The notes beneath the pieces were generated by a model. The model saw only the letters and a list, made by a program, of their open reading frames with translations. It had not been told where the DNA came from and ran no database searches. The translations under genes were made by a program, and so were the position numbers. From Paracyclopina nana (taxonomy: Eukaryota > Arthropoda > Copepoda > Cyclopoida > Cyclopettidae): a stretch of 64,000 nt of DNA. Shown piece by piece: positions 16,690 through 42,582 of this stretch. Position 1 is the first letter of the stretch, and each line of letters starts with the position of its first letter. Location of the stretch: contig JAGUCH010000008.1 of NCBI GenBank assembly GCA_019096065.1, forward strand, positions 439,001 through 503,000, read 5' to 3'.

Positions 16690-17398
16690 AAGTATTTAAA
16701 GTGTTTTGTTTACTTTGAGTTTTTTGTGTACTTTAAGTGTTATGTGTACTTTAAGTGTTTTGTGTACTTTAAGTGTCTTGTGTACTTATAGTATTTTGTG
16801 TACTTAAAGTGTTCTGTGAACTTAAAGTGCTTTGCGTTCTTTAAGTACTTCGCGTACTTAAATTGTTGAGTGCGCTATATGTACTTAAAAAGTGCTCTGT
16901 GTAATAATACTGTTTTGTGTACTTAAAGTATATTTTGAACATACAGTGTTTTGTGTACATTAAGTGACTTGAGTACTTTAAGTGAACTGTGTGCTTTAAG
17001 TGTTCTGTGAACTTAAAGTGTTCTGTGAACTTAAAGTGTTCTGTGAACTTAAAGTGTTCTGTGAACTTAAAGTGTTCTGTGAACTTAAAGTGTTCTGTGA
17101 ACTTAAAGTGTTCTGTGAACTTAAAGTGTTCTGTGAACTTAAAGTGTTCTGTGAACTTAAAGTGTTCTGTGAACTTAAAGTGTTCTGTGAACTTAAAGTG
17201 TTCTGTGAACTTAAAGTGTTCTGTGAACTTAAAGTGTTCTGTGAACTTGAAGTAGTCTGTGTACAAAAAGAAGTAAGTACAATAAAAGAAGTAAGTGAAC
17301 TTGAAGTAGTCTGTGTACAAAAAGAAGTAAGTACAATTAAAGAAGTAAGTGAACTTAAAGTAGTCTGTGCTAAAAGCAGTCAGCTTAAAATAATCTGA
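16690..17398 (+). repeat. 18-bp minisatellite with 54-bp higher-order flank
   Basis: From about 17000 to 17247 the unit GTTCTGTGAACTTAAAGT repeats almost perfectly about 14 times. Degenerate relatives (GTGTACTTTAAGTGTTTT) precede it from 16690. After it come two copies of a 54-bp unit (3 x 18) combining GAAGTAGTCTGTGTAC and AAGTAAGTGAACTT. Since 18 is a multiple of three, all frames stay open by chance, which explains repetitive open frames on both strands. Each unit carries the palindrome GTTCTGTGAAC. Confidence 0.95.
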
Positions 17399-38246: not shown

Positions 38247-41200
38247 ATGTGGACAACTCCATGTTTACTAGTGCTCCTTTTTTCCAACTTTTTTGCCTCA
38301 TCAAATAATTTGCCCAGTGTCACTTTTGCCCAGCTGAGGCTGAGTCAGGCTTCAGACTGGTTAAGACAGGCCAACAATGGCCAATTGGGAGCATTTGTCA
38401 TCACCCATCTGGACCTAGAGTACCAAAAAGCAGTTGGCACACTCCAAAAGGAGGCTCCAGCTTGTCTGGAGACTCATCCAGGGCTACCAGATCTGGAGCT
38501 CAATGATGGCTCTTTTAGAACAACTTTTGCGAGCATGTCTGGTAGCAATGATGGTGATGGTGGCAGCTTGGACTGCTTAACTGGTCCACTCAGTGTGATA
38601 AGTGAGACTTTTGAAGAGGTGGATGATTTGGTGGCTGAAATGATCCAGAGGATCACTGGTCCTCTGTGGATCAAGGATGATGAGGATGTGTTCAAGCTGA
38701 ACAGTGCACCGGTTAAGTCCCACCTACATGTGTACAAAAAAGACAGGTTAATCAAAGGTAAACAAACTTTTTTTGCCTACTACATAGAGAAATTTCTTGA
38801 AGGCCATTGTCATATTTATGAGGTGTCATAAAATGAAAGATTTATATGCTTTAAAGTGTATACATGTTGTTTTTATAGCCTAAAGATTGCAAGGGACATG
38901 AAACAATGAGCTTGTGAGCTTGTTTTTTTTTGTAGACAAGCTCACACAATTGCTCACTTCCTCATTGTTAATCAATATGTCGACAAAGCCTCAGCGAGCC
39001 ACTTTGTAATAATTCCGAACAAACTTTGCTCTCAAGTTCAGAGTCCATGGCTTGATGCGCAGGATGATGCCTATGTTTTGCTTGTTTGCCTGTGCAGTTT
39101 GCAATCTTTGCCAAAGTACGTCAGACTTATCGTTTTCATTTTCAGACCATAAGCGAGCAAAAGAAATGATGGTCCCTTTTCATGTCGACAATGGAATGTA
39201 CTTGATCATCACGCCTTTCCCAGGCCATGGTCTACAAATAGAAAGCAGTTCAGGTGGGATATACTAAAATGCGCGACATGCGCGACAAGCGCGACATGCG
39301 CGACAAACTGCTAAAATGCGCGACATGCGCGACAAACTACTAAAATGCGCGACATGCGCGACTACTAAAATGCGCGACATGCGCGACTACTAAAATGCAT
39401 GGGTGCTGTCACTAAGGCCTAAAATGAGGTGGGTTTTAGGATCTAAAATCAAAGTGGGTTTTACGATCTAACAAATTGGGTTTTAAAGCCTACAGATTTG
39501 GCATCAGGGTACTAAGATCTAAGTAGAAAAATCAAATAAAGTTCATCATGGGTTTTAATATCTAAAGGCCAAGGTTTTATGATCTAACAGCGTGGGTTTT
39601 AAGATCTATTGCATCAGAACAAAAAAAAGTATTCTCAAAACCATGTTGCCAACTAAAACCTGAGCAAGCATTACATGAAAATTAAATGCTAAATGCTGAA
39701 ATGCTATTAGTGAAGTTTTGATAATTGACATTTAATGATCCAACATTTTAGACTTTAAAACCCACGCCTTTAGATAAAAACACCCAGGTACAACAAAATG
39801 ATGCTTTTCCAATGTAGATCTTAAAACCCAGGTGACTAGATCTTAACATCCAGTTGTTAGGCTTTAGCATCCAAATCTTTAGATCTTAAAACCTAGGAGA
39901 AAAAAGCTTAGGCTTTAAAACCTATCTTTATTATAGATCCTAAAACCCACCCCTATTTTAGGCTTTAGTGACTTCTCCCAAATGCGTGACATGCGCGACT
40001 ACTAAATTATGGGACAACAAAAAGTACTTGGATTATTAATCCATTATTAATCTAAGAATTATATGCAGTCTGTCCATTCAAAATTGGACAGTGCTGTAGC
40101 CAAAAGTTTATGTTATGAATTCATGAATTTCAAGGCATAATGGGTATAGGTGGAAAGCTTGAACATTTGGACACCTTTTTTATTTTTTGACGGAATTTAA
40201 AGTATTTTTTTTCTATTTTGGCAAAAAAGACTCAAGCTTTCCAATGAGATTAATTAAGTCCAGTATTTCTTGATTATGTAACCCAAAGTTTAGATTCCCA
40301 CACTGTCCAATATTGAAAGGACAGAGTTCAGACTGTACAATAACAGGCAAAAAAAAAAGAAAAAATGATAATTCTATTTTTAAGTCTAACATTGTATTTT
40401 TTTTCAAGTCTAACATAGTATTTTTTTCAATTCTTACTTTTTTTCAATTCTAACAAATTTTTTTTATTTCATTTCATTGTTGTATCTCCTCTCTGATAAA
40501 AAACAACGCCATAATTTCGGCCGTTACTTTAGGTGAACAGTGCAGAGTGAGCTACATCAACGTAATATTTATGAAAAAGCATGACAAATAATCAGTAATA
40601 GAAAATAGAAAAATATTTCAAGAAGTGGTAACAAAACATTTTTTTTGCATTTTAGTAACCTGTGGTGCTTGTCGCGCATTTTAGTAGTCGCGCATGTCGC
40701 GCATTTTAGTAGTTTGTCGCGCATGTCGCGCTTGTCGCGTATGTCGCGCATGTCGCGCATTTTAGTATATCCCGTTCAGGTCACATCATCAACACCGATG
40801 ATCTGAAGCATGACTCCATAATTGTGCTGATGGGCAGAGGCCTCACTGATTGGCTTCTCATGGATCATCCAGATCAGCACATGTTCCAAGCAGTTCCACA
40901 TGCTGTCGACACATTGATGCCAAGCATGTCACCAAGGGTCATCTATGCTCGAATGAAAGTTGCTCCTTTGGATGCTGAGCCAGAGTCTTCTTCATCGCTT
41001 CCGGATTACAGCATAAAGTTGACATTTGGTGATGTCTTTTACAACCAAGGTTCCATTGAGCCAGATCAACTATGTGCCACAGATCTGGACGGAACAGAAA
41101 AAGTCATTGGTACATCATCATCATCACATGTTACATTTATTTGTAGGCAGATCTAACAGAAACCAAAACACCTGGGAAATGCACATTTTCTGAAAGCTTA

Positions 41201-42582
41201 TGTCCCAAGGGTTCAAATGGTACAAAATTAAAAATCCTGGCCAATCCCTACCCAGTCTTAAAAACCATGTATCTCTGAAATGGGACATTTTACTGGGAAT
41301 ATGAATAGAATTGACCCCTCTAAAACTGTAAGAACTAACTTTTAACTTAATATAAAAATATTTTGGCTGAACAGGAAAGGAGATAAAGGGTTGCAAAAAT
41401 GATTTACGCCAAAGTTTATTCTTCAGTCAAATAGAGTTTCAACAATTTAGAGACTTCGTAAATGATGTCAAAAGTTAGATCTCACTACTTTTGAGGAGAA
41501 ACAACTACAAATATTTTTTAAAAATCAGAAATAAAGGGGCAGGGCCAAGATTTTTATTTTTGTGTCAAATGACCCCTTGGGACATAAGCTTTCAGAAAAT
41601 GAATGTTTCCCAGGTGAGTTTTTTGGTATGGGTAAGATCTTCCTTCAAGCCAATGTGATATGCTAAGAACATGTTTAACAATGATGCATCCATGTTTTTC
41701 CTTGCAGTGAAAAGGGATCATCATGCGAGTGCTGAAGATGAGCTATGTCAAGCTGGAGAATCGTATTGCTGGATGGGATGTCGGCCGCTTCAGAACTGCA
41801 ATTCAACTGATGTTAACGTGTGTTACAGCACAGTGAGTAACATCACATGTGGAACAACTTTCGACAGTCCAATCATGGATCCTGATTGCAAATGGGAATG
41901 TATGGAAAAGCCCGAAGAGCCATTGAACGACTATTGCAACGGTGGCATGGACATGCTGATGCAAGGTTTCGAAACTGCACATGCAGACAAGCAAAAGATG
42001 TGCATCATCCTGTTCATCAAGCCATGGACTCTGAATTCAAGAGCAAAGTTTATCGTTGCTTGCTTGGGAGTGGCTGTCTTAGGCTTTGGCATCGAATTGT
42101 GCATCGCTGTTCGCAGGCTGGTCTCAAGGTAACAGCCGGTTAAATCACATTTCGCTTTGTCGCTAATCGACATTGATTTCAGTCGCAAGGGATACTTCAT
42201 GCGAATAAGACCAATGACCAGGAAGCTTTTAATGACAGCCTTGTTTGCCCTCAACTTGGTCTTGGGATACTTGGCCATGTTGGTGGCAATGACTTATTCG
42301 GTGGAGTTGTTCATTTGTGTCGTGATTGGCATCACAATTGGCCACTTCTTCTTCAACACGAAGACTCCAGTTGGTGAATCGATAGATCCTTGTTGTGCTT
42401 CCCAGAACAATTGTTCATCGAAGGCTGCTGTGATAAATTTGACAAGAACACCCTGTGACATTGAAGGTCATGATGATGGTGATGATTCCGGATCAGAAGA
42501 TGAGCTCAAATCGAATTGCTGCTCTTCGAATCATCATCCGGAGAGCAATGGCATCACCAAACCCATAGTTCATATACAATGA
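38247..42582 (+). CDS. Ctr/SLC31-type copper transporter with long ectodomain
   Basis: This is a membrane protein expected to carry Cu(I) as a trimer. Exons: 38247-38757, 38941-39096, 39146-39253, 40780-41109, 41708-42128, 42183-42582; total 1926 nt, 641 aa. Seen: signal peptide (about 1-25), extracellular region of about 450 residues with a Cys-rich part (SYCWMGC, CKWECM), the Met-rich entry motif GMDMLMQGF (about 446-454), KPWTLNSRAKF before TM1 (about 478-500), TM2 with M541-x3-M545, TM3 with G558-x3-G562, and a cytosolic Cys/His-rich tail (CC, HH). These motifs are diagnostic of Ctr proteins; most are much shorter. The start chosen has CACC before ATG and leads the hydrophobic signal; an ATG 30 nt upstream is in frame. 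The exon 1-2-3 junctions are least certain. Intron 3 is a transposon; intron 4 holds a MITE. It converges on the BET gene. Confidence 0.85.
39393..39987 (+). mobile_element. 579-bp MITE nested in the Ctr-intron transposon
   Basis: The element is 39401-39979. Its left end is GGGTGCTGTCACTAAGGCCT and its right end, reversed, is GGGAGAAGTCACTAAAGCCT; similarity continues through GGTGGGTTTTAGGATCT. It is flanked by AAATGCAT (39393-39400) and AAATGCGT (39980-39987), an 8-bp target duplication with one CpG-type difference. Internally the words GGGTTTTAAGATCT and AGATCTTAAAACCC recur in both orientations. It was inserted after the outer element. Confidence 0.85.
40070..40345 (+). repeat. Internal palindromic region of the Ctr-intron transposon
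   Basis: ATTGGACAGTG...CAAAAGTTTA at about 40083-40110 and the inverse TAAACTTTGGGTTAC...CACTGTCCAAT (its complement on the other side, about 40279-40314), together with GGAAAGCTTGA and TCAAGCTTTCC, form a large imperfect hairpin in the centre of the element. Confidence 0.6.
41147..41645 (+). mobile_element. MITE inside intron 4 of the Ctr gene
   Basis: The left segment with CACCTGGGAAATGCACATTT and TGAAAGCTTATGTCCCAAGG (about 41170-41218) is inverted at about 41570-41617 (CCTTGGGACATAAGCTTTCA, TTTCCCAGGTG). Weaker similarity reaches AGATCT at both outer edges. About 0.5 kb, no open frame. The 598-nt intron 4 (41110-41707) is mostly this element; its splice sites lie outside the inverted repeats, unlike intron 3. 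Confidence 0.75.

Follow-up and report, generated by a model that had tools for sequence, protein, structure and literature searches.

A non-autonomous TIR transposon between CAG|GT-bearing target-site duplications as a probable new intron in a copper-transporter gene of Paracyclopina nana

The interrupted copper-transporter gene

The window (the whole 64,000-nucleotide stretch analyzed, G000:C8:439001-503000, in the 92-Mb genome of 10 contigs) carries a gene for a Ctr-type copper transporter on its forward strand. Five coding pieces, the last including the stop, join into a frame that is open from ATG to stop and encodes 589 aa. These are exon 1 (38247-38757; delimited by its open frame, splice sites and alignment to homologues), the left half (39146-39253, ending ...AGTTCAG|GT) and right half (40780-41109) of an interrupted exon (both placed by in-script joining and homologue alignment), the next exon (41708-42128), where the Ctr domain starts (PF04145 at 20.0 bits, under the 25.3 cut-off), and the last exon (42183-42582), which contains the rest of the domain (PF04145 at 46.3 bits, cut-off 25.3) and the TGA stop codon at 42580-42582. 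The PF04145 match identifies the protein as a member of the Ctr family, with the domain at its C-terminal end, and PF04145 was also assigned to most of the 83 homologues found in a full-length protein search. The nearest relatives are 74–76% identical, and copepod-named homologues were detected in Tigriopus californicus (39% identity) and Eurytemora carolleeae (38% identity). If the DNA that interrupts the exon were retained in the transcript, the frame would read GGG ATA TAC TAA and end at this TAA (39265-39267, directly after the third codon), ahead of the Ctr domain, so that the Ctr part of the protein would be lost.

Several other features were observed in and around the gene. The N-terminus encoded by exon 1 is hydrophobic and signal-like (by eye). 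The first intron holds a 91-bp reverse-complement copy (39021-39111) of part of a downstream exon (41961-42051) with 84.6% identity, and the host pre-mRNA could therefore pair with its own exon 41708-42128. The intron at 41110-41707 contains an inverted repeat with arms at 41104-41242 and 41543-41684 (143 bp aligned, 76%) that extend nearly to both splice sites; this inverted-repeat element is probably a later guest, since six of the eight exon-level homologues described below seem to share the intron. Open frames near the host gene encode EGF repeats, a K+ channel-type ion channel domain and a bromodomain, and an array of 18/36/54-bp tandem repeats at 16692-17369 has long open frames on both strands (FKFTEH repeats) and is probably not coding.

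The inserted element and its family

The exon is interrupted by an intact inverted-repeat element lying between identical 8-bp target-site duplications that contain AG|GT, GTTCAGGT (39248-39255 and 40774-40781; 8/8 identical). The left boundary (39244-39273) reads AGCAGTTCAGGT|GGGATATACTAAAATGCG and the right boundary CGCATTTTAGTATATCCC|GTTCAGGTCACATC, with 40773 as the last base of the element, and the sequence and coordinates given in the sequence-only reading proved correct. The outer, non-autonomous TIR element (GGGATATACTAAAATGCG...CGCATTTTAGTATATCCC; 39256-40773) was delimited by sequence and family comparison, measures 1,518 bp including a nested element, and has no stop-free stretch longer than 76 codons. 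Its left TIR arm (39256-39399), with subterminal ATGCGCGAC repeats, is 81% complementary to its right TIR arm (40646-40773). The nested element, an inner MITE at about 39401-39979 that the sequence-only reading had missed, is 98.8% identical to copy L007 and 98.6% identical to copy L008. Close relatives of the outer element include L064 and L002, with 94.1% identity across 767 bp, and L005, with 96.0% identity across 696 bp. Copies such as L064 do not hold the inner MITE, their alignment passing directly from query base 139 to 725, which indicates that the inner MITE was inserted later, either here or in a lost progenitor. At L008 (G000:C2:15392307 region, ~1487-1508), two inner-MITE ends were found back to back in a tandem arrangement (GGCACCCTTTGTAGGGTGCC).

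The element is a member of a dispersed family. An 18-bp element end gave 204 matches at up to two mismatches in the 92-Mb genome, compared to none for a backward-read control. Paired ends were examined at 41 loci (40 further loci and the window copy), with exact duplications of 8–9 bp at 24, duplications with one mismatch at five, and none readable at 12. Exact matches to GGGATATACTAAAAT number at least 138 (81 among the listed matches with up to two mismatches plus 57). AGGT was found within the 8 bases adjoining the end in two of these at least 138 cases, compared to ~2.0 expected from the frequency of AGGT in the window (0.00295 per base on each strand), in an exact-pattern scan whose scope is paired and undiverged copies. 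A narrower AGGT pattern gave no match in the backward control, and a wider pattern returned the same two matches with one in the backward control. The two AGGT-flanked ends belong to the window copy and to L058 (C2:11828451). L058 was rejected as a second intron case because its right duplication has decayed (ATCGCAGGT vs ATCGCGGGA) and its longest frame through the site is 62 codons. Counting duplications that carry AG|GT, as the sequence-only reading had proposed, gave no recurrence: among the 41 loci, 29 with a readable duplication, the window copy was the only one with AGGT in it. No AGGT-flanked end was found for the inner MITE with the one pattern tried. AGGT at family ends thus occurs at the rate expected by chance, indicating that the family has no preference for proto-splice sites, and the case for intron gain rests on a single site.

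A long plain coding frame (>200 codons, a threshold that passes over shorter exons) runs through the empty site at two of the 41 loci, the window copy and L074. Two loci were set aside before this count, L080, whose very long frames consist, as judged by eye, of low-complexity repeats, and L083, whose 206-codon frame ends four codons beyond the site. At L080 (G000:C7:5140662-5148567), two family members flank a long low-complexity array and have mirror-image duplications (CGAACATTG and CAATGTTCG). Frames of 97–129 codons cross the empty site at nine loci (L047, L049, L054, L061, L064, L066, L067, L069, L078; frames <97 codons were left out); none had a Pfam match above cut-off, the two sub-threshold matches scoring 17.0 and 16.7 bits. 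The L074 copy (C4:8502604; element 1001-2059 of G000:C4:8501604-8504662), of the TACGCAACATGCGC subfamily and with the duplication CTGTAGTTT, interrupts the coding frame of what we take from a motif to be a SWIM-like gene, which gave no Pfam match. No GT-AG pair restoring exact length was found at L074 in the stretch tried, although 15 pairs keep the frame. Two uninterrupted copies of this gene, each with 80% identity, are present at C7:3318833 and C8:6339160.

Three superfamilies were considered for the element. Mutator-like (MULE) elements make duplications of ~9 bp, and the window family resembles MULE MITEs in its 8–9 bp duplications (exact at 24 of the 41 loci) and in TIRs that start with GG. 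The MULE transposase domain PF10551 has five matches in the genome. Between GGGATATAC ends the searches turned up no transposase: none of the PF10551 matches lies, by eye, near the GGGATATAC end places listed (100 of 204 and 57 of 57), and at the one MULE locus of the five that was inspected no GGGATATAC-type end was found within 5 kb. Merlin elements also make duplications of 8–9 bp, and the genome has no match to PF12762 (DDE_Tnp_IS1595), a search whose control was positive in one of 14 genomes, a prokaryote. hAT elements make 8-bp duplications; the hAT dimerization domain PF05699 had no match in the genome and likewise none in the control genomes. The longest family copies, L055 (4.1 kb) and L071 (2.4 kb), were rejected as autonomous partners because they contain short frames only, and seven of these frames (71–128 aa) gave no Pfam match above cut-off and a single sub-threshold match of 15.2 bits.

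Predicted splicing and the fold of the TIR arms

The CAG|GT of the duplicated site supplies a candidate donor in the left copy (CAG|GTGGGA; intron from 39254) and a candidate acceptor in the right copy (TATCCCGTTCAG|GT; exon resuming at 40780), and the predicted intron (39254-40779) is of GT-AG type, 1,526 nt long and in phase 1. Joining 39253|39254 to 40779|40780 in script removes the element together with one duplicate, gives CAG|GTCACATC at the junction and reads AGC AGT TCA G|GT CAC ATC, restoring the coding sequence exactly within the 589-aa frame. The donor, the acceptor (GTTCAG|GT) and the in-frame restoration put forward in the sequence-only reading are therefore all present in the sequence. 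Among 20 GT-AG pairs around the two edges, four keep the frame open and only one restores the exact length.

Splice sites were scored with consensus weights that are not derived from P. nana. With these weights, which are not species-specific, the donor scored 5.7, among the best-scoring 0.5% of all GTs in the window, higher than the other donors of the host gene (2.6, -2.9 and 2.0), and was the sole GT above 0 among eight in 39150-39420. With the same non-specific weights the acceptor GTTCAG|G scored 3.1, compared to 4.7, 6.0 and -1.7 for the other acceptors of the host gene, and was the sole AG above 2 among 21 in 40450-40860. A competing 3'-splice-like site (CATTTTAG) is located 14 nt upstream of the predicted AG and its use would shift the frame, and no plain branch-point motif was seen by eye near the acceptor. 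Splicing at the sites born from the duplication is likely.

Homologues at exon level indicate that the intron is derived. A search with the joined exon returned eight proteins at E <= 0.001 from 11 candidates, and all eight cross the site in a single frame, seven with unchanged length and one (P0007) with four additional residues. In six of the eight, the protein runs across the following exon boundary, reading G-K or G-M there. This read-through suggests that they were called on genomic DNA retaining the following intron, in which case the exon itself would be uninterrupted in their DNA. A paralogue within the same genome (C9:4025845-4026123; ~40% identical) is uninterrupted across query residues 9-105, and the junction is gap-free in all 10 full-length homologues that were aligned, out of the 83 found. 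Judged from these alignments, with the eight homologues and the paralogue uninterrupted at the site, the intron is derived; none of them showed a sign of the orthologous intron that the sequence-only reading would have counted against the gain. The date of the insertion is loose, since the nearest relatives are only 74–76% identical.

The minimum-energy RNA fold of 39231-40800 forms 120 TIR-TIR pairs, with the base of the stem exactly at 39256:40773. In this predicted fold the left duplication is unpaired, but the stem takes in the donor at +3 to +6 (GGGA). Every one of the six AGs in the right arm is paired, and the AG of the duplication (40778) stays free. A TIR-only construct folds at -226.5 kcal/mol compared to -81.9 kcal/mol (s.d. 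4.2) for 50 mononucleotide shuffles. From this model the hairpin may aid splicing by burying decoy AGs and drawing the two sites close to each other, or it could hinder U1 through the pairing at +3 to +6 of the donor. A more general proposal, which we offer tentatively and on balance doubt, is that long TIRs make an insertion an immediate intron, with the stem base at the element edge burying the right-arm decoys and juxtaposing the duplication-born sites, so that the duplication AG alone would be free. If this were true, AGGT in the duplication would suffice to make any long-TIR element a ready-made intron, and ordinary MITEs could found introner families with no need to evolve splice sites themselves.

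Proposed origin of the predicted intron and comparison with known systems

The explanation that we consider likely is that a non-autonomous TIR transposon landed in an uninterrupted exon, that a chance proto-splice site made it an intron in one step, and that a second MITE later lengthened it. On this account, the transposon would have inserted at GTTCAGGT in an ancestral, uninterrupted exon of the Ctr-type copper-transporter gene, and a staggered cut of 8 bp would have duplicated GTTCAGGT. With CAG|GT present at the insertion site, the duplication would have yielded a 5' splice site on the left (CAG|GTGGGA) and a 3' splice site on the right (GTTCAG|GT). The spliceosome would then remove the element and one duplicate, restoring the original codons, and the second MITE would later have entered the element and lengthened the intron. 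We infer actual splicing, its efficiency and the survival of the insertion by splicing from the sequence.

The first alternative is that a recent insertion breaks the gene on this chromosome copy, that the AGGT is coincidental and the RNA truncated or degraded, and that the frame is intact only through youth. The chance rate of AGGT beside family ends is consistent with this, as is the L074 copy, which lies in an exon with no exact splice and indicates that tolerated gene-breaking insertions exist in the genome. We nevertheless consider it unlikely. Random 8-bp sites in the host coding sequence hold a sense AGGT at 30 of 1,762 positions, and with only two of the 41 loci in a long frame, the chance that one of the two has a sense AGGT is ~3%. 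The L074 gene has two uninterrupted copies at 80% identity, but the sole paralogue of the copper-transporter exon is 40% identical; the two insertions, one with AG|GT and a distant paralogue and the other without AG|GT and with closer gene copies, fit a filter on survival, in tiny numbers. Furthermore, the nested element with 98.8% identity to another copy suggests that the outer insertion lasted until it was hit again, unless both arrived together.

A second alternative is removal of the element from RNA through its hairpin. In SOS splicing, DNA transposons are removed from RNA in a hairpin-dependent manner that does not need canonical splice sites, and the CAG|GT would then be incidental. 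The predicted stem of 120 TIR pairs, based exactly at the edges of the element, and its folding energy far below that of the shuffles are in keeping with such a route. Such a route would have no need of the good-scoring canonical sites that give the exact join here, and we regard it as very unlikely; the term was absent from the papers listed by the literature search. That the element belongs to a specialized introner family, with AG|GT as its target and numerous introns of its making in the genome, is highly improbable and largely refuted by the AGGT count, on which it was rejected: the TIRs, the 8–9 bp duplications, the one clean intron, the Florenciella introners that take both splice sites from the target (PMC9860276, Fig. 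2E legend) and the naming of copepods as an introner-bearing lineage (PMC9860276) speak for it, but AGGT lies beside a family end only twice genome-wide by exact pattern, once at the decayed L058, the other 40 loci have no AGGT in a readable duplication, and the inner MITE has no AGGT-flanked end by the one pattern.

The introner-type gain proposed in the sequence-only reading is therefore supported in part. Insertion with both splice sites from the duplication is supported by the eight homologues and the paralogue, all uninterrupted, and by the open joined gene, whereas membership of an introner family is not supported, given the lack of an AGGT excess. The birth of an intron is rarely caught with all of its steps legible. 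Here they can be read, from the element with both its ends and its duplication to the restored frame and the relatives that have no interruption, and the nested second insertion illustrates the later growth of a new intron. As the family has no preference for AG|GT, the case also separates chance capture followed by selection from a specialized introner, and it allows a possible contribution of TIR hairpins to new-intron splicing to be put to the test.

Maize Ds and dSpm elements are spliced from host transcripts using sites at or near the target-site duplication, and they resemble the window element as exonic DNA transposons with splice sites in that position, a likeness of arrangement and not of compared sequences. 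The proto-splice model set out in section 7 of PMC3443670 has insertion into AGGT producing an AG|GT donor and an AG|G acceptor, and the same article tabulates 35 transposon-insertion events in Oryza, Drosophila, Oikopleura and Zea. The window case shares with the model as described there the insertion into AGGT, the AG|GT and AG|G of the duplicated site and a coding sequence unchanged after splicing. Nothing in principle sets it apart from the model; in the window case the complete element with its two TIRs, the full 8-bp duplication and the nested element can still be read. Introners as described by Gozashti et al. 2022 (PMC9860276) are recognized by a method that requires groups of similar introns, and those of Florenciella take donor and acceptor alike from the sequence into which they insert. 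The window element is similarly a non-autonomous DNA element with TIRs, target-site duplications and both sites taken from the target. Introners are families of similar introns, whereas the window family was not seen to recur as introns in the 41 loci and has, by exact pattern, only two AGGT-flanked ends, one of them with an intact duplication; the predicted intron of 1,526 nt also exceeds the median introner family lengths of 30–654 nt reported in PMC9860276. From its sequence, the window case likely acts as an introner insertion would, outside any demonstrated introner family. The route of intron birth is one already known, and the window case is an unusually clean and legible example of it.
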